A stretch of 22,741 nucleotides of DNA from a virus: positions 1 through 22,741 of IMG/VR virus record IMGVR_UViG_3300027996_000181; one strand, written 5' to 3'. Each line of letters begins with the position of its first letter. Position 1 is the first letter of the stretch. Shown piece after piece: positions 1 through 22,741 of the stretch. The notes under the pieces are model-generated. The model had not been told where the DNA came from and did no database searches. It saw nothing but the letters and a program-made list of their open reading frames with translations. The position numbers and the translations under genes were made by a program.

Positions 1-1260
1 ACTTAGATGGACTTTAATGGTGATGTTAGATGTGTTCATATAGATTGGGAACACCACTCCATCAACTCCATTTCTGTTTTTGGCTATAAAGATACGACCC
101 TCGTTATTCAATTTGTCCTCGGCGGTCCTGGATATTGAAAAAATAAAGTCTGCGACAAAACATTTGTTAAAGGCCTCTGATATTGATTCCATAGTGATAA
201 CTTCGGCATTTAGCCCAGAACGATTTGTCTGGGAAGCAGTCCATACACAGCATTTGTGTACTTGCGCCAAGGCTCTCAACTGCTCATAAATAGTCTCCAA
301 TTCGTGCCTTTTCTCTCTTAAATTTGAAGATGGCCTCAAAAGGTCCGCATAATCGACGATTATCACATCCGGAGTAAAGTCCCGGTTCTTCATTTTTTCC
401 AAATGATGCTTTAGTGTATTGACACTCGAAGATTTTGTTGGATATTCCTTGACAATCAAGTTTCCTTCGAGATCTTGAATTTTCTCGTATATCTCTTCCT
501 TAAAAGAGTGGAGGGAGCCAAGTGGGACTTTGGTCAGGCAAGAATCGAACCGTGACCCAACCACGGTGTCCGAAAGCTCTAGAGTATAATAGACCACATT
601 CTTTCCGGCCGCTATGGCTTGGGCGCCGATGTGGACGAGAGCCATGGACTTTCCTGCACCAGTAGGGGCGATGACGACACCCAACTCTCCGGCGCCCAAG
701 CCTTGGTGAGTTATACTATCTATCTCAGACCAGCCAGTGGGAACTGGATTTCTAGCCTTCAAGATGAATCTTTGTTCGAAGTCTTTTAAATAATCATGGC
801 CAAAATCAGAATCAGAACCCAGGCGCAAAGCCTCATTAATGACTTCGGCAATTTCGTCGAACGAGGACTTCTGAAGCAACTTCACAGACCTTAACATTGC
901 TCCTTTGAGCTTTTGCTTTCGACAGAAGTCTAAACTAGTCTCCTTGATATATGTCGATTCTTCTATATCGGATTTAGATATTCTAGCAAAGAAATTTCTA
1001 ATTTGCTGTTGAACCGATTCATTTAGATTTTCTATTTCCGTTCTCAAGACTGAAGTCATTATCTTTTCAGTGGGATGGACTTCAAACTTTTCGCGGTATT
1101 TCGAAATTAAATTTACAAATTCCTGAAGGTATTTTAGTTCTAGGAAATTAACGTCGAGGACTTCGAACATCTGGTCAGCAAACGGTCTATCGATCAGTAT
1201 CAAATGGCACAGCATTTCTTGAAAGTCTTTGCCATATTGACTAAAATCTTCTTTGGACAT
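1..1260 (-). CDS. gp41: Replicative DNA helicase, DnaB/T4 gp41 type (3' end cut by window edge)
   Basis: The frame starts at ATG 1258-1260 and stays open for 420 codons to base 1, so the stop lies outside the window. It encodes a hexameric 5'-3' replicative helicase of the RecA-fold DnaB family. Visible motifs are Walker A APTGAGKS (residues 198-205), Walker B VIIVDYADLL with Asp303, and the downstream ASQTNRSG motif (342-349) typical of DnaB/gp41. The first ~160 residues form a divergent N-terminal domain. T4 gp41 is about 475 residues, so perhaps 50 residues are missing. The start is preceded by a G-rich ribosome binding site (AGGGGGGCGA, 1261-1270) and its own sigma-70-like promoter. It probably unwinds the fork for the phage polymerase. 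The family call is firm; loading partners and primase are not visible here. Confidence 0.93.
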   Translation of the reverse strand, partial: MSKEDFSQYGKDFQEMLCHLILIDRPFADQMFEVLDVNFLELKYLQEFVNLISKYREKFEVHPTEKIMTSVLRTEIENLNESVQQQIRNFFARISKSDIEESTYIKETSLDFCRKQKLKGAMLRSVKLLQKSSFDEIAEVINEALRLGSDSDFGHDYLKDFEQRFILKARNPVPTGWSEIDSITHQGLGAGELGVVIAPTGAGKSMALVHIGAQAIAAGKNVVYYTLELSDTVVGSRFDSCLTKVPLGSLHSFKEEIYEKIQDLEGNLIVKEYPTKSSSVNTLKHHLEKMKNRDFTPDVIIVDYADLLRPSSNLREKRHELETIYEQLRALAQVHKCCVWTASQTNRSGLNAEVITMESISEAFNKCFVADFIFSISRTAEDKLNNEGRIFIAKNRNGVDGVVFPIYMNTSNITIKVHLS

Positions 1261-1280: not shown

Positions 1281-1309
1281 AATATAACATTAAATATTGT
1301 ATTTGTCAA
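1281..1309 (-). promoter_or_regulatory. Sigma-70-like early promoter for the helicase gene
   Basis: On the minus strand, TTGACA (1309-1304) is followed after exactly 17 bases by TATATT (1286-1281), with an extended -10 TG at TGTTATATT. The -35 box overlaps the TGA stop of the upstream 5' nuclease gene. Transcription would begin near 1275, leaving a very short leader with the ribosome binding site. An 8-bp inverted repeat with a 3-base centre (TAATGTTA/TAACATTA, 1274-1292) overlaps the -10 box and could be an operator or merely AT-rich symmetry. Confidence 0.82.
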
Positions 1310-2262
1310 ACATTACTTGTGATTCTTTTGAAGGTGGCGAACAGAGCCGTAGTGTTCCACTCTCCAAATCCGTCATTTGACATCCTCTTTATCACACCAG
1401 TCTTATTAAACTGGGGTTCGTAATTTTCAACAGTTTGTTTAATTCTCCTCTTACCGTCGATTGAGATAGATGGAGAATACAGTTGCATAATCTTATAATT
1501 CTCTACAATCGTCTCTCTGCTCTCAAGTATGGAAGAAAAGACTCTCAGATTGGTGTTATCGTTTTCACAGAAATCAAACAGTTTATCGAAGGCGATGTCG
1601 GACTCTTCAGCAAAGAACGGAAACCTTTTTGAAATCGTAGCTAACCCGACGCCCTTGGCGCCTGGAAGGTTGTCTGATTTATCTCCTGCGATTGCGCGTG
1701 CCAAGGCAAAGTTGCCAGGGTGAATCGAAAACTCCTCCAGAATCCTCGGCTTGTTTACAAACTTTTTCTGAATCGGGCGATAAATAACCGTCTCATTATC
1801 GCAGAGTTGAAAAAAATCTTTATCGCTCGAAACGATTACCTTTTGCCACCCTTTGTAGTGTGGAAGCTGGACCACATAAGAGATAATATCATCTGCCTCG
1901 ACGCCATCGTTCATCAGTTGGATGACCGGCATATCGTTTAGTAATTCCATTAGCCTATGTTGCTGCCATACCTTATTTTTCATCTCCTCGTCTTCAGTCA
2001 GATTCTTTATGTCTCGATTCAAACGAATTGGCTTACGCCCTTCTTTATAGTTCTTGTTGACCGCCTTCCTTCTCTGCGATCCACCTGCGCCATCCCAAGC
2101 TATGATAATTTCATCAGGCTTCATTTCTCGACATAACTTCTGGAGGATCTTAACGAACCCCTTGTATCCTCCGATGGGTTGCCCATTGGTAGACAAGCTC
2201 GGGTCTACGATATAAGCTCTAAAATATGCGTTAAGGGCATCTATAACCAACAGTCTTTTCAC
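1306..2262 (-). CDS. rnh: 5'-3' exonuclease / flap endonuclease (T4 RNase H-like)
   Basis: This 318-residue protein belongs to the FEN/PIN-like 5' nuclease family, which in phages removes RNA primers and flaps during lagging-strand synthesis. Metal-ligand motifs are in order: VIDALNAYF (Asp8), IAWDG (Asp57), the basic RR...YKEGRK arch region (64-77), EADDII (Glu122, Asp124, Asp125), SSDKD (Asp147, Asp149) and AGDKSDN (Asp194, Asp197). A helix-hairpin-helix GAKGVGLATI (201-210) follows. T4 RNase H is about 305 residues, so this is full length. The start is GTG at 2260-2262, overlapping the stop of the J-domain-like gene by 4 bases (GTGA) with GGAGAG upstream, so translation is probably coupled. 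It could equally be called a stand-alone version of the DNA polymerase I 5' nuclease domain. Confidence 0.93.
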   Translation of the reverse strand: MKRLLVIDALNAYFRAYIVDPSLSTNGQPIGGYKGFVKILQKLCREMKPDEIIIAWDGAGGSQRRKAVNKNYKEGRKPIRLNRDIKNLTEDEEMKNKVWQQHRLMELLNDMPVIQLMNDGVEADDIISYVVQLPHYKGWQKVIVSSDKDFFQLCDNETVIYRPIQKKFVNKPRILEEFSIHPGNFALARAIAGDKSDNLPGAKGVGLATISKRFPFFAEESDIAFDKLFDFCENDNTNLRVFSSILESRETIVENYKIMQLYSPSISIDGKRRIKQTVENYEPQFNKTGVIKRMSNDGFGEWNTTALFATFKRITSNV

Positions 2263-2918
2263 TCTTCACTCTCCGGATTTTTCTCTTTATCTTTCTCTGC
2301 CAAGGTCTTTAATATATCAAAGTAACTTGACATTAACTCTTCTTTGCTTTCTTCCGAATCTTCGTTGTACCATACCCAGGCGTAAGAATTCGTCATTTGC
2401 TTTATTTCTTTCTTTATCTTTTCAGATTCTAGCTCAAGGATCTTAACCTGTTCATCGCTCAATAATCCGATGTCGATACCAAGATCGAGGGCTATTTGCT
2501 GAAGGGCGAATAGTCTATTTTCCTCGGCGGCAGATGTGGCCTTTAGAAAGATCGCCCTTTTGTGCTTTCTCTCCTCTTCCGAAAGAGAAGTCAATTTATC
2601 CGGATGGGTCACTGTAACAATTCTCTTATATAAGTCTTTAACATCCTTATTGATGTTCTTCTTATCTATTTGGAATATGTCACTCTTTTCGGCATCTGCC
2701 CCATGTGCGTCGTCCTGTTCAGGAGAGAACTCTTGCTGTGCTGGGGCACTTGAAGCTGGTGGGGTTGGTGAAGGATTTGTCATCCTACTCATCACTTCCT
2801 TCTGGAAGTTATTCCCCGCATCTTGTAAGGCAGCAGTATGGTATTCCAAATCTGCATAAAGAAACTTCAATTCGAATAGTAGCTTGTGATGCTTTAACTT
2901 GTTCTTGTGACTTGCCAT
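2259..2918 (-). CDS. J-domain-like (DnaJ-type) protein
   Basis: The protein has 219 residues. The centre resembles a J domain: a helix (DVKDLYKRIVTVT) leads into the diagnostic HPDK loop (residues 105-108), followed by a second helix with FLKATSAAEENRLFAL. In J proteins HPD stimulates DnaK-type ATPases. No Gly/Phe region, zinc fingers or C-terminal substrate domains are present. The N-terminal ~45 residues are helical and charged, residues 47-75 are a Pro/Ala/acidic linker, and the C-terminus is charged coiled-coil-like. The gene overlaps the 5' nuclease start by 4 bases. The ATG at 2918 has no clear ribosome binding site; an internal ATG at 2792 (residue 43) has AGAAGGA upstream and is an alternative. 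The role is unknown; recruiting host DnaK to phage replication proteins is a guess. Confidence 0.7.
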   Translation of the reverse strand: MASHKNKLKHHKLLFELKFLYADLEYHTAALQDAGNNFQKEVMSRMTNPSPTPPASSAPAQQEFSPEQDDAHGADAEKSDIFQIDKKNINKDVKDLYKRIVTVTHPDKLTSLSEEERKHKRAIFLKATSAAEENRLFALQQIALDLGIDIGLLSDEQVKILELESEKIKKEIKQMTNSYAWVWYNEDSEESKEELMSSYFDILKTLAEKDKEKNPESEE

Positions 2919-3302: not shown

Positions 3303-4421
3303 TTAAATCTCTATAGTCTCTTCATTTTCGTAAAAATCTTCTGCTTTTCCTTGCCGATTATCAAATTTATAAATGATCTCTTCATCGATGATCTGATATA
3401 CTCTTTGTCGAAATTTATCGTCCTGCATCTTGTCGGCCCACTTTGAGGCTTGGAACTTTTCAGTCGATCCGTCGTCGAAAACCATTGTAAACCAGGCGCC
3501 GGATTGCTTGATGTTGTCAGAGCCCTTGACGGCCTCAAAAAGGGACTCATCATCTTGGATGCTGACCTGATCTCCTCCCCATAAAATTCGAAAGTTGCAG
3601 CGTCGACCCTGTGTTCCGAACCTTGACTTCTCAAGCTTTACTTTGACTTCTGACCCAATGCGGAATCCATTATCATCCAAGACGAAACTAGCTTTTGCCT
3701 TGCGACCGGTGAGCCAGATGCGTAAAGAATACGCATAAATCATGGCTTTTCCGCCGGGAGTAACATACGGGGTAGTCATAGCCTCGCTGGGAGAGCGGGT
3801 AATATTTGTCTTTAGCTGATTTAGGACTAGGAAAGTCGATTTAGTGTTTGCGATTGCTAGTGTCAACTTCGACATACCTTTCGCTAAAATACGAGCTTTC
3901 ATCGCCATAGATGACTGAGGGTTGAAATCCCCCTCGACGTCGGAAATTGCGGGAGTCAATGCCAGAGAATCCCAGATAAAGAGGATCTGGTTGTCTGAAC
4001 CAAGAAGCTCCTCCATGGTTTCCAGAACGAACTCGACAGAGGTTGCTTGAACATAAAGTAACTTGTCGAGATCGCATCCGGTGTTCTCAAGGAAGGTTGG
4101 GTCAATGGCCGATTCCGAATCAAAATAAACAACATCCACTCCCATCTTTTGGGCGTTTGCTGCGATCTGAGCGGCCATATATGACTTCCCAGTCGCTTCA
4201 AGGCCGGCGATTTCCGTAACCTTGCCCACCGGAATTCCGGAAAGCTTTCCTCGACAAATAATAGAATCAAGCCAACGAGATCCCGTCGGAATCCATTGCG
4301 TAACTTCTGTCGGATTCTTTTCCTTCAGGTTATGGGCAACGTTCATTCCCGCCTTTTTATTGATAATCTTCTGCATATCTCCCAGAGATAGCTTACCAGG
4401 TGATGTTGTTTTTTTAGCCAT
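3303..4421 (-). CDS. uvsX: UvsX-type recombinase (phage RecA homologue)
   Basis: This 372-residue RecA/UvsX strand-exchange protein would form filaments on single-stranded DNA with the gp32-like protein encoded upstream. Walker A is GLEATGKS (residues 73-80), the FDSES segment (100-104) follows, and Walker B ILFIWDS has Asp151. FLVLNQLK (197-204) matches the region after strand beta-5. The TTPYVTPGGKAM segment (216-227) corresponds to the DNA-binding L2 area. Length is close to T4 UvsX (about 390). The start ATG at 4419-4421 follows directly on the stop of the FKBP gene with AAGGAAC as ribosome binding site, so both are co-transcribed from the gp32 promoter. The assignment is firm; the UvsY mediator was not found in this window. 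Confidence 0.94.
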   Translation of the reverse strand: MAKKTTSPGKLSLGDMQKIINKKAGMNVAHNLKEKNPTEVTQWIPTGSRWLDSIICRGKLSGIPVGKVTEIAGLEATGKSYMAAQIAANAQKMGVDVVYFDSESAIDPTFLENTGCDLDKLLYVQATSVEFVLETMEELLGSDNQILFIWDSLALTPAISDVEGDFNPQSSMAMKARILAKGMSKLTLAIANTKSTFLVLNQLKTNITRSPSEAMTTPYVTPGGKAMIYAYSLRIWLTGRKAKASFVLDDNGFRIGSEVKVKLEKSRFGTQGRRCNFRILWGGDQVSIQDDESLFEAVKGSDNIKQSGAWFTMVFDDGSTEKFQASKWADKMQDDKFRQRVYQIIDEEIIYKFDNRQGKAEDFYENEETIEI

Positions 4422-4865
4422 CTATGTTCCTTCTTCTGTGATCTCGACCAGTTCAATTTCAAACAATAGGCTCTTTCCTGCAAGGGGGTGGTTCAAGTCG
4501 ACCGTAATAGCTTGCTCATTAATTTGAGTTACATGTCCGACTGCCGTTGAGCCTTCTGCATTCGATAGTGGGATTGGCATACCAACTTGTAGTTCCAAAT
4601 CTTCCGGGAACGCAGAACGATCGATGTGTGTCACTGCGGCGGGGTTGGGTGGGCCATAGGCATCTTCTGGGGCTAGCAGCGCCTCTTTCTTCTCTCCGAT
4701 TGACATACCTACAATAGCGTTGCTAAAGCCGGCGATCAACCTTTCATCTCCCACTTTGACTGCCAAGGGCTCTCCGCGAGTATATGAGTTATCAAATTCT
4801 GCTCCATCTTCAAGTGTCCCGCGGTAATTAACCAAAACGTGATCACCATTTTTTACTGTCGACAT
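4422..4865 (-). CDS. FKBP-type peptidyl-prolyl cis-trans isomerase, SlyD-like
   Basis: This 147-residue protein has the SlyD layout. An FKBP half-domain includes VNYRGTLEDGAEFDNSY and LIAGFSNAIVGMSIGEKK (residues 12-60). An inserted 'insert-in-flap' domain (about 70-118) follows, and the signature VDLNHPLAGKSLLFEIEL (122-139) closes the FKBP fold. The metal-binding His-rich tail of bacterial SlyD is absent. The family catalyses prolyl isomerisation and acts as a chaperone in the cytoplasm. The gene sits between gp32 and uvsX and abuts the uvsX start without spacing, so it is part of the recombination operon. AAGGA lies 5 bases before the ATG. The enzyme class is well supported; the client protein is unknown. 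Such genes are uncommon in phages, and host origin by transfer is an inference. Confidence 0.92.
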   Translation of the reverse strand: MSTVKNGDHVLVNYRGTLEDGAEFDNSYTRGEPLAVKVGDERLIAGFSNAIVGMSIGEKKEALLAPEDAYGPPNPAAVTHIDRSAFPEDLELQVGMPIPLSNAEGSTAVGHVTQINEQAITVDLNHPLAGKSLLFEIELVEITEEGT

Positions 4866-4927: not shown

Positions 4928-5719
4928 TTAATTTCCTGTTAGCTCGTTGAAAGCTGACAAAACTTCAGTTGAACTAGAGGCTGGTTTATAAGCTTCCGAG
5001 TCTGTTAGATCAATTCCGGCGACAGGGTCGGCGGAGTCTCCAAGCGAAGCCATGAAGGAATCGAGGGCCTCTTGAACCTCCTCTAAGGACTTGGTCGGAA
5101 AGAGATTGTCGAAGTTTGGAATATTCTCCAGCAGGCGTGAGCACTCTTCATCGCCGCCAACAGCTTCATCACAAAGCGGAGAAGTGCGGCGCCGAGGTGT
5201 CAAAGTTGTCTTTGGGAAGTTAGCGCCAGGAGGCTTGCCATACGTCAAAGTCAGATCTGTCCCTGCGTCGACGTCAGTGATATCTCCGTATTCGGGATTT
5301 AGAACCAGATTCAACAACGAGGTGTAAGCTTCTTTGCCATATCCCCAGATTCGAATTCCACCAGACTCTTCCCCTCGGACCATTACTGGAGAGAAGAAGC
5401 GTTGTCGAGGTGTCATATCCTTGGCCAACTTAAGAGTGTCTGTGTCTTGCGTGCTATTATATTCCTTCCAAAGCTGATCCTTGAAGTCACAGATAGGGCA
5501 ATCATCTCCATGATTTTTCTTCGGACATATCAATCCACCGCGTTGCTCTGGGCCGAGGTTATAGTGAAACCAATAATCCTTGAAAGGGTCACCGTCCGAA
5601 GTCGGAACGATACGGATAACCTGCTGACCATCCTGTGGGCGCCAGAAGGAACCTCCGGCTTTGCCGTTGCTCTTTACGTTATCAAGCCGTGCTTGAATTT
5701 TTGTTAAATCTAATCCCAT
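4928..5719 (-). CDS. gp32: Single-stranded DNA-binding protein, T4 gp32-like
   Basis: The protein has 263 residues (T4 gp32: 301). A basic N-terminus (to about residue 20) is followed by the OB-fold core. A zinc site is visible as His52, Cys65, Cys74 and Cys77; its spacing almost matches His64/Cys77/Cys87/Cys90 of T4 gp32. RQRFFSPVMVRG...GGIRIWGYGK and YGDITDVDAGTDL (105-155) are typical gp32 core segments. The C-terminus from about 205 is acidic, as in gp32, where it contacts replication and recombination proteins. ATG at 5717-5719 has AGGAG 8 bases upstream. The gene has its own promoter and a leader of about 100 bases with two stem-loops, reminiscent of the translational autoregulation known for T4 gene 32. 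Confidence 0.92.
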   Translation of the reverse strand: MGLDLTKIQARLDNVKSNGKAGGSFWRPQDGQQVIRIVPTSDGDPFKDYWFHYNLGPEQRGGLICPKKNHGDDCPICDFKDQLWKEYNSTQDTDTLKLAKDMTPRQRFFSPVMVRGEESGGIRIWGYGKEAYTSLLNLVLNPEYGDITDVDAGTDLTLTYGKPPGANFPKTTLTPRRRTSPLCDEAVGGDEECSRLLENIPNFDNLFPTKSLEEVQEALDSFMASLGDSADPVAGIDLTDSEAYKPASSSTEVLSAFNELTGN

Positions 5720-5873: not shown

Positions 5874-6713
5874 TTATTCGTTATTTTTATTTTGAATGCA
5901 TGGAGTCCTTTCGATGACATATGCGATATCGTAATCATAATCAGTAGAATAAATGGCATAAGATACCTTAACATTTTCTTCCGATTTTGACTTTATTTGA
6001 CTCATTATTTTTTTAAACAATTTACCATCATTCTTAAGTTTTTCTTCATTGATACCATAAATATAGCATTTTTCTCTCACATTGTCAAGCGAAAAAAACT
6101 TTTTTTCCTTATTCTTGGCTGCATCGTATATGCCGATGGTAGTAATTCGATGTGTTATCTTTGACTTCTCAATCTTTCCAATCACGGGGTCTGTATTATC
6201 AAAGACCTTTATCATATGGAATGCTGGTACCAATACCTCGTTCAGCTTATCGTGATATCCGATAATTGGCGCGCCGTCGATAATTTCATCCAGTGCTTCG
6301 TTTGATATAAGATACATCTTCTCAAAAACTCCGGATCTCGCGTATTCCTGGAGTACCCCGAATACAACCTTCTCGCGGAGCAGCGGAGTACCACCCAACA
6401 GGGACATGTCTGGCTTTATATACATAATCGAGATTGACAGGCTCCTGATATTTTCAAGAATTCGAAGTGAGGCACACGATACCTTTCCAGACCCGCCAAT
6501 GATGACAAGCGCCTCGCCCTTGAGTCCCTTGAAGAAGGTCTTTATCCTCGGGAGTTTGACGGTTTCATACTCTTCGGCTGAATCGCACTCAGGAAGTGCA
6601 TAACAGCGCTCTCCCTCCAGGCCCACATCGATCTTATAGATATCATATTGAGGATATTTTCCAAAACAATCCGCAATCTTAACTCCTGCGGAACCCAGGC
6701 CTATAATATTCAA
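5874..6713 (-). CDS. Tubulin/FtsZ-superfamily-like protein (tentative), coupled to DNA polymerase
   Basis: This 279-residue protein starts at TTG (6711-6713), inside the polymerase stop (TTGA overlap), with GGAGG 7 bases upstream. The N-terminus IIGLGSAGVKIAD (residues 3-15) resembles the FtsZ T1 loop. YKIDVG (26-31) lies where the T2 strand would be. ALVIIGGSGKVSCASLRILENI (68-89) aligns with the FtsZ segment around GGGTGTGAAPVVAEI. It is followed, at FtsZ-like spacing, by SISIMYIKP (93-101), a long helix, MYLISNEALDEII (133-145) and a helix ending near 170. The C-terminal part ends in KVSYAIYST...IAYVIER, like the FtsZ second domain. The tubulin signature is degenerate (GGSGKVS), so nucleotide binding is uncertain. 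A Rossmann-type NAD-binding protein is the main alternative. Its role is unknown; linkage suggests DNA positioning or replication. Confidence 0.48.
   Translation of the reverse strand: MNIIGLGSAGVKIADCFGKYPQYDIYKIDVGLEGERCYALPECDSAEEYETVKLPRIKTFFKGLKGEALVIIGGSGKVSCASLRILENIRSLSISIMYIKPDMSLLGGTPLLREKVVFGVLQEYARSGVFEKMYLISNEALDEIIDGAPIIGYHDKLNEVLVPAFHMIKVFDNTDPVIGKIEKSKITHRITTIGIYDAAKNKEKKFFSLDNVREKCYIYGINEEKLKNDGKLFKKIMSQIKSKSEENVKVSYAIYSTDYDYDIAYVIERTPCIQNKNNE
6060..6088 (-). promoter_or_regulatory. Sigma-70-like promoter inside the tubulin-like gene
   Basis: On the minus strand TTGACA (6088-6083), 17 bases, then TATATT (6065-6060), again with extended -10 TG (TGCTATATT). It lies in the 3' third of the tubulin-like coding region, about 340 bases upstream of gp32, and would give a second, longer gp32 operon transcript or express a C-terminal fragment. 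Confidence 0.6.
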
Positions 6714-7900
6714 AGCTGAACCTCCATGTTTACTAGTTTGCCAAAATTTGGGCCATGACTCACATTAACTTTAAACTTTCCCAACTCTGTGTTCGAAAAT
6801 ATCTCTATAATCTCAGGAAGTCTTCTTAAATCTTCCTTTGTCATGTCTAAAACCACTGAATCGTGTACTGGAAAAGCCAGGTGTGAGTCCATCCCTACTA
6901 AATAATTAGATACTTTCGCCATTTGTCTCAAAACATTCTCGGCACATGTGCTCTGAATGATGTAGTTCAGGGCTGTTCTCTCTTCCGAAGGAATTACTTT
7001 GTTAAAAAAGGTTCTCACTTGGCCCTGGGTGAAGTACTTTTGTACCACAGTGTTTCGATCGTATATCTTCTCGCACATACGATCATGACTCTTAGGATTA
7101 TATAGCCAAGCAAAAATCCTCTTCTTGGCCTCATTCCTGGTGCCGGCGCCGCGGAAGACATTTCTAATATTCCATTCGTGGATATCTTCAACTGGCTGGG
7201 GTTTTCCCTGGAGCGCCAAGAGTGTTCTCAACTCTGCTGCATTGAAGTCAAGTTCGACAAAGTAATCATTCGAGGGCTCGATTACGCAGCGAAACTCCTT
7301 ATCCAGAGTCAAGATTGGGAAGCTAGCTGCAGTAGTTGTCAGGCGGCCTGTCTTAGTGCCATTAATATTGAATTTGCAATAAGGCCCTATCTCTCTCAGT
7401 TTTCGTGAGAACTTCCTGTGCTTTGACTTATAGAATGACAGGTTTTTGGGATTTATATTCAATTTCCTGTACTTAATGTCTTCAATATTTTTGATCAGAG
7501 AGAGTGTATGCTCATAGTTCGCTGGCTTCTCATAGTTTTCAAAAACATGCTTACAGATCATATCCTTCACATAGCACATTTCTAAAAGAAACCTTTTAGG
7601 CACTAAGTCAAAAAAACAGTTCTCATTGAGCGATACACGGGCCGTATGAAAAGATTTGAGCAAAGCTTTGAGCTTTTCCTCAACACGCTCCCAGCGCTCT
7701 GTTAGGTGGGTTGGACACGCTTCTCGCAATGATAATCCCCCACAGTATATCTTGGCATATTCCACTTCATGGCCAGAGAGGAAACTAGAGTATGACCAGG
7801 TGTGAGTCAGGCCGGCCAAGATAGAAATATCAAACGAAAGAGCGCCATCACAATATATACCAACGCACTCTCTTTTATCGTCAAGCGTCTGGAAAAGCAA
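6710..7900 (-). CDS. Family A DNA polymerase, polymerase domain only
   Basis: This 396-residue protein carries the palm/fingers motifs of DNA polymerase I. GTKTGRLTTT (181-190) precedes motif A VELDFNAAELR with catalytic Asp218. DIHEWN (239-244) leads to the O-helix with Arg255, Lys259, Phe263 and Tyr267 at Pol I spacing; Phe263 corresponds to E. coli Phe762. ERTALNYIIQSTCAENVL (307-324) and motif C FPVHDS (Asp347) follow. Motif C has Ser instead of the usual Glu in HDE. The N-terminal ~150 residues are divergent and too short for a 3'-5' exonuclease, so the enzyme appears exonuclease-free. TTG at 7898-7900 is the likely start, with GAGG 5 bases upstream. It is probably the replicative polymerase, replacing the T4 family B enzyme, and overlaps the tubulin-like gene. 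Confidence 0.9.
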   Translation of the reverse strand: MLFQTLDDKRECVGIYCDGALSFDISILAGLTHTWSYSSFLSGHEVEYAKIYCGGLSLREACPTHLTERWERVEEKLKALLKSFHTARVSLNENCFFDLVPKRFLLEMCYVKDMICKHVFENYEKPANYEHTLSLIKNIEDIKYRKLNINPKNLSFYKSKHRKFSRKLREIGPYCKFNINGTKTGRLTTTAASFPILTLDKEFRCVIEPSNDYFVELDFNAAELRTLLALQGKPQPVEDIHEWNIRNVFRGAGTRNEAKKRIFAWLYNPKSHDRMCEKIYDRNTVVQKYFTQGQVRTFFNKVIPSEERTALNYIIQSTCAENVLRQMAKVSNYLVGMDSHLAFPVHDSVVLDMTKEDLRRLPEIIEIFSNTELGKFKVNVSHGPNFGKLVNMEVQL

Positions 7901-18316: not shown

Positions 18317-21184
18317 TTAGTCATCAAAAGATGCGCCAGATCTCGTAATCACAAAATCAACTGCGATAAACTCAATAGCTCTTGCAGGCTTCAAGAATAT
18401 CTTAGCATACATGATGTTCTGATCTACCAAGTCCGGAGTAGTGGTCGTCTCATCGAGAACAACCTTAAATTCGGTCAATCCCAATCTCGACTGGATACTT
18501 GACAGCAGCGGATTAACCTGATTTAGGAACCTCTCCCAAGTCACGCTAACGTTCTGATCAAACAAGAGGCCAGAAGATATTCTGGATACCTGTTTCTTAA
18601 TGAAGATCATCAACCTTCTCACGTTAATTCGATCGAGTGCTGATCTCTTAACCTGCATAGTTTTTTGTCCGAAAACGACAATGCCTTCCGATGGGAATGA
18701 GGCGATTGGATTAACACTCGCATCATAAAGAAGATCCCTGTCTTTCGAGGTCAGCTTATATGTCAGGCCTGCGACTGGTAATCCGGCAGAGCCCTCTGTA
18801 AGACCTCCACGATTAAATCCTGCAGGTGCAAACCATACCTCTGATTTGGCCTCGGAGTTCGCCATGACGCCAAGTCCTATTACGGAAGGCGGGACCCAGA
18901 GTAATCTAGAGGCGATAGTATCTCGGACCTGGACCCATGGGAAATAGGTACATGCGTAAGAAGAATCAATTTGCCTCAGTCTAAGTGCGTTCACTGCGTC
19001 ATTCGGGGTACTAACTCTTTCCTGAAATGCCTTAGTATTCTCTGTAAAAGGAGCATACACATCTTCGAGGTCGACGACTGCGAGAGCGTCTGCTCTGTCT
19101 TCGCAAATGTTTATCATATGTTGCGTCAATTTTGTGTTAGTCAGCCCAGGTACTGCGAGTAGATTATACTCTACAACTTCTGGGTCGGAAATACTGTTGA
19201 GAGCTTGTTGAATTGCGTTAAATGCGTAGTTGGAGTACTCGTTATCAGTGGCTCCCATGGCACTGTTTCTAAATGGTTCGATCTCCTTGATATTGAGGCC
19301 GTCAAACCCATCGTAAAGGGGGGCCGTAAAGCTGTCATAACCATCTGTCAAAATAGAAGTATAATCCCCCTGTGCAGTGGCCGAATCAAGCGATGCTCTT
19401 GAGCCGTCTTTCCAGAAGGCTGTCGCTGAACCAGAAGTGACAACTTCATCCAGGGAGAATACCCACGAATCTACAAGAGTTCCCTCAAGGGCGGTAGGAA
19501 ATGATCTCAGAAGATCTCCCCAGCCTGGATCAAAGTTAAGATTGTCATTGACGGAAAGCTGGGTTGATGACTGCGCGCCGAAAAATGCGTCAGTTGGGTT
19601 TCCAAGGCCGCCGTCAGAAGCTGAGAGGCGGAGAGTCACTGCTGGCCACTGAATGGAGCATGTGTGTTGTGCGTATCCGCCTGCGTCATACATCGATGTA
19701 GGGGAAGCCTTCGTGTCAGCAGCCACTGAGCCGGTGACCAATATAGAATCTGCATCGCCTGGAGTGGTGATAGACACGGAACCGGACTCGATAGTTACTG
19801 TTGCTGGGACCTTTGGTCCTCTGACTCCGAATGGTAGAGCTTTTGGATCAGTCAGGCCAGTGGCAACATCATCTCTAATTTCTACTCGAATGTATTTCGA
19901 TTGATTGTCGTACTGTCCATATTCTCTAAGTCTCTTTTGGTCATCGTCATAAATGGTATATTTATCACCAATTTTAACTCCGATGTAGTTTTCAGATGAA
20001 GGATTCAAAGATAGATTTGTATATCTCTCGACGTATTTAACAACGTTGTCTGTGTCGTTTGCTCTTCTCACCACAACATCGAAAGTACCATATTGATCCA
20101 GTAAGCTGGTAGATGGTTTGATATTCTGTACTGATATTTTTAAAGTGTTCTGGGCGTTCTCTCCAGCGTCTCTAGCGACAATTCTAAACAGATTGTTCTG
20201 GTTGGAAGCGACGTAAGATGCGGCATCTGAAGTTAGATCTTGCGAGATGAACCAGCCGGTGGCTGCTTCTTGATAATTCTGCTTCATATCAGATCTACTG
20301 ACGGTTCCAGCAGCGTTTCCGAGGGCTACAATCATTGCGTCTGGGTTTGTTATGTCTCCGCCCAAAACGAGCTTTGCCATGGTATTCTCGAAAGTTTCTC
20401 CGAGCCAATACAGATTTTCACCGCGATTAAAAACCGTAGTGTCCACTACGTCAGAGTTCACTAACTGAGGATTCGTATTGAAGACATTTCTGATATACTT
20501 AGCGGAATCGGGATCAGCATTAAATGCTGTTTTGTGAACCACATTCCCAAGAGAGTCTTTTATTATAGCTGTGTATTCTGGGTTGAAGGAGGAGCCATTG
20601 TTTTTGAACAAGGCGTATGACCCTGTCTGTCCAGTGGCGCCGGCTGGGCCGGCGAGTGTTCCGCTAAGAGAGATAGAACCACTGTCCATGTACCAGATTG
20701 CCGCGACGACAGCATCTTGAGCCACTCCTGCTGGAGATGAGGAGCTATTGCAGACAACCAGGGCGTAGGCCCCACCGTCGTTACCGGGAGAAATTGTCCC
20801 TTCCGTTGCCCACCCAGCGGATGCGCGGTTTGCTGCCACCGGACTTCCAAGAAACTCTGGATTTTGACTTCCCAAAAGGCGAATCATTGTCACTGGTCCG
20901 ACATCAGACTTCAGATATGCTTGGGCTGCATATGCAGCATATGTTGGGCCCTGCTGGTTCCCATCTCTCCACACATCTCCTCCGGCGCCGCCTGGTACCG
21001 GATTACCAAAAGTCTCGACATATTCAGAAAACGATTGAACGGTGACTGGTCTCATGGCTGGGCCAAATTGGGTACGACCAACGACAAGTGGGCCGATTTC
21101 TCGTTCTGCTGCCGGTAATTGCGAGTTGTCAACTTCGCTTAAAAATACGCCGGGCGATACAAATTTGAACTTTTTGACTGACAT
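18317..21184 (-). CDS. gp18: Tail sheath protein, T4 gp18-like (enlarged)
   Basis: This 955-residue contractile sheath protein starts with FKFVSPGVFLSEVDNSQLP and EREIGPLVVGRTQFGPAMRPVTV (residues 6-50). YVETFGNP, TYAAYAAQAYLKSDVGPVTMIRLLG (about 80-105) and the C-terminal core RLMIFIKKQVSRISSGLLFDQN...LVDQNIMYAKIFLKPARAIEFIAVDFVITRSG (about 850-950) are typical of sheath proteins. T4 gp18 is 659 residues; the extra ~300 residues are in the variable middle (about 110-640), which contains Gly/Ser/Asp-rich beta-type sequence and may form outward-facing domains. ATG at 21182-21184 is preceded by TAGGAG. The gene appears to form its own unit between two candidate late promoter motifs. Together with the tube it proves a myovirus-type tail. 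Confidence 0.94.
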   Translation of the reverse strand: MSVKKFKFVSPGVFLSEVDNSQLPAAEREIGPLVVGRTQFGPAMRPVTVQSFSEYVETFGNPVPGGAGGDVWRDGNQQGPTYAAYAAQAYLKSDVGPVTMIRLLGSQNPEFLGSPVAANRASAGWATEGTISPGNDGGAYALVVCNSSSSPAGVAQDAVVAAIWYMDSGSISLSGTLAGPAGATGQTGSYALFKNNGSSFNPEYTAIIKDSLGNVVHKTAFNADPDSAKYIRNVFNTNPQLVNSDVVDTTVFNRGENLYWLGETFENTMAKLVLGGDITNPDAMIVALGNAAGTVSRSDMKQNYQEAATGWFISQDLTSDAASYVASNQNNLFRIVARDAGENAQNTLKISVQNIKPSTSLLDQYGTFDVVVRRANDTDNVVKYVERYTNLSLNPSSENYIGVKIGDKYTIYDDDQKRLREYGQYDNQSKYIRVEIRDDVATGLTDPKALPFGVRGPKVPATVTIESGSVSITTPGDADSILVTGSVAADTKASPTSMYDAGGYAQHTCSIQWPAVTLRLSASDGGLGNPTDAFFGAQSSTQLSVNDNLNFDPGWGDLLRSFPTALEGTLVDSWVFSLDEVVTSGSATAFWKDGSRASLDSATAQGDYTSILTDGYDSFTAPLYDGFDGLNIKEIEPFRNSAMGATDNEYSNYAFNAIQQALNSISDPEVVEYNLLAVPGLTNTKLTQHMINICEDRADALAVVDLEDVYAPFTENTKAFQERVSTPNDAVNALRLRQIDSSYACTYFPWVQVRDTIASRLLWVPPSVIGLGVMANSEAKSEVWFAPAGFNRGGLTEGSAGLPVAGLTYKLTSKDRDLLYDASVNPIASFPSEGIVVFGQKTMQVKRSALDRINVRRLMIFIKKQVSRISSGLLFDQNVSVTWERFLNQVNPLLSSIQSRLGLTEFKVVLDETTTTPDLVDQNIMYAKIFLKPARAIEFIAVDFVITRSGASFDD

Positions 21185-21777: not shown

Positions 21778-22741
21778 TTACGATGTGAGAGAGACCTGCT
21801 TTTGGCCCATGACAGTGACATCATCACCTGTTTCACAGCCCAAGACACTGACGGTCATAACGCCGGCGGCGGAGGACACAGTATAATCAACAGTGGTTAC
21901 CATAAGTATACCGTTGACAAATACCTGCAATGAACCTTCGTCTGCGAGGTCGCCTAGGGCAACCTCATAAGTGCCATCGGAACCTACGACAGAGCTAGCT
22001 CTGAAGTGTCTTCCGTATAGGGCAAGTATATCAGCGTTTAGCTCACTGACATCAGTGGTGAGGGCAGCTTCTGCTGTCAATGCTCTAGTCTGCTCAGTGG
22101 TAACACTGGCGGAAAGGGCAGCTTCTGCTGCCAATGCGCGTGCAGCTTCAGAAGAAATATCTGCTGCGTTAGTAGCGATATCAGTATCGTTCGAGGTGAT
22201 TTGATTCTGAAGAACTACATCTGCTGCTGCGAATTCAGTGCGGATTAATGCACGGTCGTCAGAAGCGGAGAGAATTTCAACACCAGCATACGCCCCTAGT
22301 GCGTCGATGTTACCCTGGAGGGCTGTATCTGCTGCTTCAAACTCGGAGCGGATTGCTGCGCGATCGTCTGCTGCTACGGTCGACAGGTTGGTGATGGAAG
22401 TCTCAAGACTACCATCAGCAGCCTCATAGGCTGCGACAACTTCGATAAATGTGTCGAGGCCGTCGGATGAACCCGAGAGGATCGCGGTGACGCGAGCGTC
22501 AACAGTATCGATGTTACCCTGAAGGGCAGCTTCTGCTGCCAATGCGCGTGCAGCTTCAGCATCGATGTTCGACTGAAGAGTTGTATCTGCTGTTGTGCGG
22601 GCTGCTGCTTCAGCATCGATGTTACCCTGAAGGGCAGCTTCTGCTGCCAATGCGCGTGCAGCTTCAGCATCGATGTTCGACTGAAGAGTTGTATCTGCTG
22701 TTGTGCGGGCTGCTGCTTCAGCATCGATGTTACCCTGAAGG
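21778..22741 (-). CDS. Tail fibre / receptor-binding protein, C-terminal part (5' end cut by window edge)
   Basis: The frame is open from base 22741 to TAA 21778-21780, about 321 codons; its start lies outside the window, and apparent internal TTG starts are not real. The N-terminal visible part is built of Ala-rich 18-residue repeats of the pattern DAEAARALAAEAALQGNI, expected to form a trimeric coiled-coil or fibrous shaft. LSGSSDGLDTFIEVVAAY is a segment common in marine phage fibres. More heptad-like units (SSEAARALAAEAALSASV) follow. The last ~90 residues form a beta-rich tip with LQVFVNGILMVTTVDYTV and GDDVTVMG, resembling adhesin tip domains. It is the terminal gene of its unit and ends before a strong terminator. 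A neck whisker or short fibre is an alternative. Confidence 0.85.
   Translation of the reverse strand, partial: LQGNIDAEAAARTTADTTLQSNIDAEAARALAAEAALQGNIDAEAAARTTADTTLQSNIDAEAARALAAEAALQGNIDTVDARVTAILSGSSDGLDTFIEVVAAYEAADGSLETSITNLSTVAADDRAAIRSEFEAADTALQGNIDALGAYAGVEILSASDDRALIRTEFAAADVVLQNQITSNDTDIATNAADISSEAARALAAEAALSASVTTEQTRALTAEAALTTDVSELNADILALYGRHFRASSVVGSDGTYEVALGDLADEGSLQVFVNGILMVTTVDYTVSSAAGVMTVSVLGCETGDDVTVMGQKQVSLTS
22511..22741 (-). repeat. 108-bp perfect tandem repeat in the fibre gene
   Basis: Units start at 22511, 22619 and 22727; the first two are identical over 108 bases and the third runs off the window. Each unit is two related 54-bp halves, equal to two 18-residue protein repeats. 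A 37-base exact piece of the unit recurs at 22115-22151. The copy number outside the window is unknown. Confidence 0.93.

Follow-up and report, generated by a model that had tools for sequence, protein, structure and literature searches.

Gene organization of the locus

The window, a 22,741-nucleotide stretch of viral DNA (IMG/VR record IMGVR_UViG_3300027996_000181), carries on its minus strand, in order, baseplate and tail genes, a gene for a 428-residue protein, a family A DNA polymerase gene (polA), a tubulin-like gene and the gene for a gp32-type single-strand DNA-binding protein (SSB). These are followed by genes for an FKBP-type protein and UvsX, open reading frames (ORFs) of 101 and 219 residues, and genes for a 5′–3′ exonuclease and a DnaB-type helicase (Table 1). 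The initial annotation had described the source as a T4-like phage, a label that suits the gp32-type protein, UvsX and a T4-type baseplate protein, but not the polymerase, which belongs to family A.

The tubulin-like gene had been read as starting at a TTG codon that overlaps the polymerase stop codon, and the sequence bears this out, as the two ORFs have the tetranucleotide TTGA in common. Moreover, the GGAGGT sequence 6 nt upstream supports the TTG start. The sequence itself shows the overlap and the ribosome-binding site; translational coupling of the tubulin-like gene to the polymerase gene is our inference. The short motifs quoted in the initial annotation are also all present, at residues 5–10 (GLGSAG), 73–79 (GGSGKVS), 96–101 (IMYIKP) and 133–145 (MYLISNEALDEII).

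The FKBP-type prolyl isomerase gene (4422–4865, minus strand; PF00254, E = 5.4e-20) lies between the SSB and UvsX genes, and tblastn against 165 related loci, many truncated and some duplicated, detected an FKBP-like protein in 24. The 219-residue ORF (2259–2918, minus strand) adjoins the exonuclease gene, contains by eye an HPDK motif as in J-domains, and matches phrog_34319, a family of unknown function (E = 9.9e-6). The tail sheath gene (18317–21184, minus strand) encodes 955 residues, of which only residues 659–947 are covered by Pfam sheath domains. An ORF cut by the window edge (21778–22740, minus strand) contains LQGNIDAEAAART-type repeats, fibre-like by eye, that are encoded by a tandem 108-bp repeat (54-bp subunit) at 22503–22741.

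Table 1 Features of the tubulin-like gene and its neighbours in the window
Feature	Position	Strand	Basis or conservation
Tubulin/FtsZ-fold protein (predicted), 279 aa, TTG start	5874..6713	(-)	ORF; AF2 model (scores in text); Foldseek and VIA-align matches to FtsZ, CetZ and TubZ
TTGA, overlapping polymerase stop and tubulin-like start	6710..6713	(-)	Sequence
GGAGGT, Shine–Dalgarno-like, TTG 6 nt downstream	6720..6725	(-)	Sequence
T1-like loop GLGSAG, residues 5–10	6684..6701	(-)	G5 in 147, G7 in 149 and G10 in 147 of 149; paired with FtsZ T1 by hhalign
Degenerate T4 loop GGSGKVS, residues 73–79	6477..6497	(-)	Paired with GGGTGTG by hhalign; G74 in 133, G76 in 130 and S79 in 136 of 149
N138, T6-like Asn	6300..6302	(-)	148 of 149; paired with Asn of FtsZ IPND
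N158, H7 Asn	6240..6242	(-)	149 of 149; paired with Asn of FtsZ AAND
Core helix H7, residues 153–172	6198..6257	(-)	DSSP on AF2 model
T7-like stretch NTDPVI, residues 173–178	6180..6197	(-)	Second catalytic acid missing; register uncertain
Family A DNA polymerase, 396 aa	6710..7900	(-)	PF00476, E = 8.9e-14; phrog_17
gp32-type SSB	4928..5719	(-)	PF08804, E = 2.1e-13
RecA/UvsX-type recombinase	3303..4421	(-)	PF00154, E = 3.9e-36
5′–3′ exonuclease	1306..2262	(-)	PF02739, E = 1.7e-28
DnaB-type helicase, truncated by window edge	1..1260	(-)	PF03796, E = 5e-20

A large family in uncultured phages

Relatives of the protein are encoded by at least 597 IMG/VR stretches. Successive, overlapping scans of IMG/VR recovered 8, 386, at least 561 and at least 597 such stretches, and after the first scan the best 80 of each were kept. 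The family set analysed here comprises 149 distinct proteins of at least 255 residues, drawn from 166 loci (L001–L165 and L172) and the window; the 597-stretch scan contributed no proteins to it. The 148 other members are 32–81% identical to the window protein (median, 47%), and G7, Q122, R126, S127, N158, H166 and M167 are invariant in all 149 sequences, which together argue that the ORF is not a chance reading frame.

Searches of other collections returned little. A tblastn search of 50,697 phage records revealed no convincing relative: the window protein gave one chance match, in a Klebsiella phage (E = 3), and the L008 protein gave none. No relative was found by tblastn in 72,556 plasmid records, and a stretch of Edwardsiella phage pEt-SU has no annotated tubulin. 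Two scans of bacterial and archaeal genomes, both with narrow peptide patterns, yielded nothing in the first and one locus in the second, L172 (CP070664.1), in a 2.8-Mb WOR-3 MAG chromosome. Its neighbours there are polA, ssb and uvsX genes belonging to this phage clade, and it is thus most likely phage DNA; this polymerase–tubulin–SSB operon may represent an integrated phage, a hint of the host or misbinned sequence.

Conserved place in the replication operon

We examined the gene order at 148 distinct loci, leaving out 42 with less than 1,200 bp of upstream sequence. In 104 of the 106 testable loci polA lies upstream on the same strand; it overlaps the tubulin-like gene in 51, is separated from it by a gap of at most 30 bp in 28 and by more than 100 bp in 25, with 283–2,625 bp of other DNA intervening in these last. 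The two exceptions, L071 and L074, have other genes in the polA position. Downstream, an SSB gene is found in all 135 loci that have 900 bp there (within 200 bp in 92), the remaining 13 being too short for this test. The reported coupling to the polymerase is thus real and common in the family as a matter of gene arrangement, its translational nature remaining inferred, and, in place of one odd phage, a large uncultured clade has the gene at a constant position in its replication operon.

At L071 (1–4706) and L074 (1–2432), the usual polymerase place is taken by other genes; from inspection alone, one of about 385 codons resembles a kinase gene, and L071 also has one that resembles NUDIX genes.

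The reverse test gave the same association. Among the best 80 of at least 576 loci found by the polymerase alone, 3 lacked room for the gene, and the tubulin-like gene was present at all 77 others: 70 were scored directly, and 7 have overlapping reading frames beyond the 60-bp limit, with profile E values of 7.5e-106 or better. The search patterns were derived from polymerases near the gene, which favours this outcome, and some contigs are common to the first set.

Flavobacterium phage immuto and Microcystis phage Mel-JY01, both cultured, arrange this operon in a similar order but lack the gene. Between polA and ssb, immuto has two other ORFs and Mel-JY01 three, none of which is matched by the family HMM, and the family profile found nothing at E values up to 10 in either complete record, two control contigs being positive. 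The Mel-JY01 polA was named by eye, as the record annotates it as hypothetical. The tubulin-like gene is therefore a feature of one clade and not of all phages with such an operon. In both phages a small protein follows polA (immuto, L166:1346–1801; Mel-JY01, L167:9675–10064), and the two have the stretch HRKKESNT in common.

Predicted fold and relationship to FtsZ

The initial annotation had suggested a tubulin/FtsZ-like protein, and structure comparison with FtsZ and CetZ supports this, both domains being found in two models. The AlphaFold2 (AF2) model of the window protein, built from a 71-row alignment (pLDDT 93.4, pTM 0.91), orders its strands and helices as tubulin GTPase domains do, and has the core helix H7 and a second domain. 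A second AF2 model, of the L006 protein (37% identical to the window protein; 45 rows, pLDDT 93.5), has the same order of elements. Foldseek against the PDB gave FtsZ as the best matches (E = 7e-13; TM-score by query, 0.73). With VIA-align, the window-protein model matched CetZ (Z = 24.3, r.m.s.d. 3.0 over 259 residues) and TubZ (Z = 23.4), which we regard as tied, followed by FtsZ (Z = 21.7) and tubulins (Z of about 21.5), and the aligned ranges extend from residue 1 to residues 272–279. The L006 model matched CetZ with Z = 24.4, and both models matched TubZ, FtsZ and tubulins with Z of about 21–23.5. Thus, as a prediction, the complete two-domain tubulin/FtsZ fold, with GTPase and activation domains joined by H7, is secure.

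A distant relationship to FtsZ is also detectable in sequence profiles. We compared the 149-protein family profile with a control profile of 31 FtsZ sequences (E. coli, the WOR-3 MAG and 29 genomes of the MAG's class) using hhalign, and obtained an E value of 1.4e-5, a score of 46.1 and a probability of 80, over 170 columns that place residues 2–180 on FtsZ residues 14–219. This score exceeds all 200 shuffle controls, the highest of which reached 30.2 (100 column shuffles) and 36.4 (100 ten-column block shuffles); the reversed profile scored 15.3. The family profile had no similarity detectable by hhalign to a single PhuZ sequence, that of phage 201phi2-1 (E = 0.33), to which the FtsZ profile, as a positive control, aligned with E = 2.6e-5. 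Prediction and profile comparison together show the gene product to be a divergent member of the tubulin/FtsZ fold.

Standard family models do not recognize the family. The window protein has no Pfam match and no convincing PHROG or NCBIfam match, and TIGR00065 was found in 7 of 71 members only, at E values of 0.058 or worse. A PF00091 search of ten related virus contigs gave nothing at E values up to 1, so the family is invisible to this model. A sequence search of the PDB with an 8-row profile returned only weak matches to unrelated proteins (best E = 0.44).

Nucleotide pocket and catalytic loops

The GLGSAG sequence, previously noted as T1-like, is a genuine conserved loop whose three glycines are retained almost throughout the family (Table 1). 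In the hhalign alignment, N138, residue 153 and N158 lie on or beside the Asn of IPND, the Phe of DAF and the Asn of AAND in FtsZ, which we take to be guanine contacts, and by this pairing N138 and N158 presumably have a guanine-side role. Residue 153, at the position of the stacking aromatic, is tyrosine in 139 of the 149 members; N138, Y/F/H153 and N158 occur together in 147, and in 145 they are accompanied by all three T1 glycines.

The degeneracy of the T4 loop, which the initial annotation had noticed in the window protein as GGSGKVS for GGGTGTG, extends across the family: the motif GGG[TS]G[TSA]G occurs in none of the 149 members, as against 30 of the 31 FtsZ sequences, and 106 members match a more permissive glycine pattern, [GSAC]G[SACG]Gx[IV][ST]. 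The T7 loop proved to be degenerate too. The motif N-x-[DE]-x-x-[DE] is absent between residues 160 and 190 in all 149 members and present in 30 of the 31 FtsZ controls when their window is set at an equal distance from the H7 Asn. An acid occupies position 178 in one member and position 175 in 96, and 64 of the latter also have N173; a [DE]xx[DE] pattern on its own is found in 64 members over residues 160–190 and in 21 over residues 165–181.

The exact register of T7 is uncertain, because N173 lies 15 residues past the H7 Asn of the family, and FtsZ N207 lies 21 past that of FtsZ. The hhalign alignment places a 10-residue gap within H7 and pairs N173 with FtsZ D212; H7 ends at residue 172 in the model, which gives an alternative pairing of N173-T-D175 with FtsZ N207-V-D209 and of I178 with D212. 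The second T7 acid is missing under both registers. Furthermore, the family lacks a C-terminal extension: only 4–21 residues (median, 9) follow position 270, and in both AF2 models the chain ends after the last strand, with no H11 and no acidic tail.

The strong conservation of the pocket makes nucleotide binding the likeliest retained function, although the degenerate T4 loop means that phosphate binding could be weak. With a T7 loop that lacks the second catalytic acid, hydrolysis is inferred to be poor or absent; half of T7 may survive in the 64 members with N173 and an acid at 175, and some hydrolysis is thus not excluded. Judged from the sequences, in the absence of binding or turnover data, the protein is a putative GTP-binding protein that is probably impaired in hydrolysis.

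Comparison with known tubulins

FtsZ and the family have in common a fold of two domains, the T1 loop, the asparagines of T6 and H7, and a match between their sequence profiles, but identity is only about 11–15%, and the family differs in its degenerate T4 and T7 loops, its lack of a C-terminal linker and peptide, and its place in a phage replication operon. CetZ, the top structural match together with TubZ, was compared in fold only; it is 12–15% identical, and its role is a cellular one, in archaea. The best viral structural match, A0A6J5RW92 (E = 1.8e-12, TMq 0.80), named 'FtsZ Cell division GTPase' of an uncultured Caudovirales phage, has 452 residues and is 13% identical. TubZ has the same fold, but carries a partner-binding C-terminal tail, according to the accessible part of its description (PMC5322520), and the family has none.

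The comparison with PhuZ-type tubulins made in the initial annotation is not sustained. PhuZ (201phi2-1 gp59; phiKZ TubZ) is likewise a phage-encoded protein of tubulin fold, but it keeps GGGSGS and DVHD where T4 and T7 of the family are degenerate, and the 201phi2-1 gene is not next to the polymerase gene (gp59 versus gp83), unlike that of the family. PhuZ also has a C-terminal helix and tail (PMC3678025, in the portion available), and since the family has neither, and no detectable profile similarity to 201phi2-1 PhuZ, it is not PhuZ-type. None of the 50 PDB matches listed by Foldseek and VIA-align is PhuZ, an absence that carries no evidence against PhuZ. A chimallin query (201phi2-1 gp105) had no match in ten related contigs, in a search without a positive control.

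We found no publication describing the family among the literature matches listed, which were available in part; preprints and most subscription journals lay outside the search. As far as their accessible text extends, the phage tubulins in the papers cited here comprise PhuZ, from jumbo phages that form a nucleus, and partition proteins of the TubZ type. A jumbo-phage survey mentions two distinct FtsZ/tubulin representatives in its available part (PMC7824862), and the words 'tubulin' and 'FtsZ' do not occur in the accessible main text of the Far-T4 (PMC4360716) and Mediterranean phage (PMC5628999) papers. A hot-spring virome (PMC8597652) and the Borg paper (PMC12660748) report genes for tubulin/FtsZ-like proteins, without mention of a neighbouring polymerase in the excerpts available. 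The new elements here are the conservation of the gene within the replication operon across a large clade and the degeneracy of T7 in addition to T4.

Possible roles in phage replication

The role of the protein is a matter of inference, as are its GTP binding, polymerization, hydrolysis and partner contacts. Given the fixed place of its gene beside those for the polymerase and SSB, our best guess is that it acts in replication as a scaffold or an accessory factor, and our leading reading, to which we assign a probability of roughly 0.4, is a GTP-bound, hydrolysis-poor tubulin that is made together with the polymerase and forms a static scaffold for phage replication. Through translational coupling, the protein would be produced along with the polymerase; it would bind GTP in the conserved pocket and hydrolyse it poorly or not at all. 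GTP-bound subunits would then assemble head to tail into short or static filaments, which may tether the polymerase, SSB and replicating DNA to one another or fix their position in the cell. Such a naturally GTP-locked tubulin would be a scaffold and not a dynamic spindle.

Studies of PhuZ, cited here from the portions available, offer a partial precedent. The catalytically inactive D190A variant still requires GTP, and its filaments appear at about tenfold lower concentration and persist on addition of GDP (PMC4244570). However, catalytic mutants disrupt the positioning of DNA by the phage, so static filaments fail in the PhuZ system (PMC4244570). PhuZ assembly also relies on the C-terminal helix and tail (PMC4244570; phiKZ TubZ structure, PMC3678025), which are absent here, and any filament of the family would therefore have to be built otherwise. 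C-terminal tails, which contribute to assembly in PhuZ and to the shape of filaments in TubZ (PMC3678025, PMC4244570, PMC5322520), are missing from the family altogether. Moreover, constant gene order is no proof of a physical partnership, and in the 25 loci with intervening DNA the gene does not even adjoin polA. We put forward only tentatively, and with less confidence, the bolder proposal that throughout the clade a tubulin has become a fixed, GTP-locked component of the replication apparatus, one that does not hydrolyse its nucleotide, binds the polymerase and assembles into a static scaffold for replication, being neither a spindle nor a division ring.

The lack of the tails of known phage tubulin filaments also speaks for a protein that forms no filament at all, a GTP-bound monomer or small oligomer that serves the replisome as a polymerase accessory or processivity factor. 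The polymerase has only about 395 residues, with PF00476 its sole Pfam match, the gene lies between polA and ssb and often overlaps polA, and the invariant residues Q122, R126, S127, H166 and M167, outside the pocket, could form a partner surface. Evidence of an interaction is lacking, however, and neither of the cultured phages immuto and Mel-JY01 has the gene, despite a similar operon order; we consider such a subunit unlikely, albeit a serious contender.

A dynamic cytomotive filament, like those of PhuZ or TubZ, that centres or segregates phage DNA would be consistent with the fold, the phage origin and adjoining replication genes, and the acidic position 175 in 96 members. The complete T7 motif is found in no member, though, there is no H11 or acidic tail, and the single PhuZ sequence compared has no profile similarity to the family, all of which leave this possibility improbable.

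Phage inhibitors of FtsZ are known, a point that we count in favour of a dominant-negative FtsZ that caps or co-assembles with host FtsZ and blocks division during infection. The profile similarity is indeed to FtsZ, and a subunit with a GTP pocket and a dead T7 loop could, by inference, cap a filament. But at only about 11–15% identity to FtsZ, mimicry of the host protein at the filament interface is unlikely, and the gene is grouped with replication genes, SSB being next in every testable locus; the prospects of this explanation are slim. Both the dynamic spindle and the FtsZ poison are thus less likely than a scaffold or accessory role, but are not excluded. Finally, a plain Rossmann dehydrogenase-like protein, suggested by the N-terminal GxGxxG loop and by weak 2-Hacid_dh_C matches in 2 of 8 members (best E = 0.11), can be dismissed, as both models have two domains in tubulin topology with H7 and match CetZ with Z of 24 over 257–259 residues.

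The family represents another kind of phage tubulin, shorter, chemically degenerate, fixed between the genes for DNA polymerase and SSB in a large uncultured T4-related clade, and missed by the family libraries searched. If the bolder scaffold proposal is true, it would be a replisome tubulin, with a job and a chemistry unlike those of PhuZ, TubZ, FtsZ and CetZ. If the role of the protein matches the place of its gene, tubulins would have entered phage replication itself, and a natural hydrolysis-impaired tubulin would be available to test what GTP turnover is needed for.
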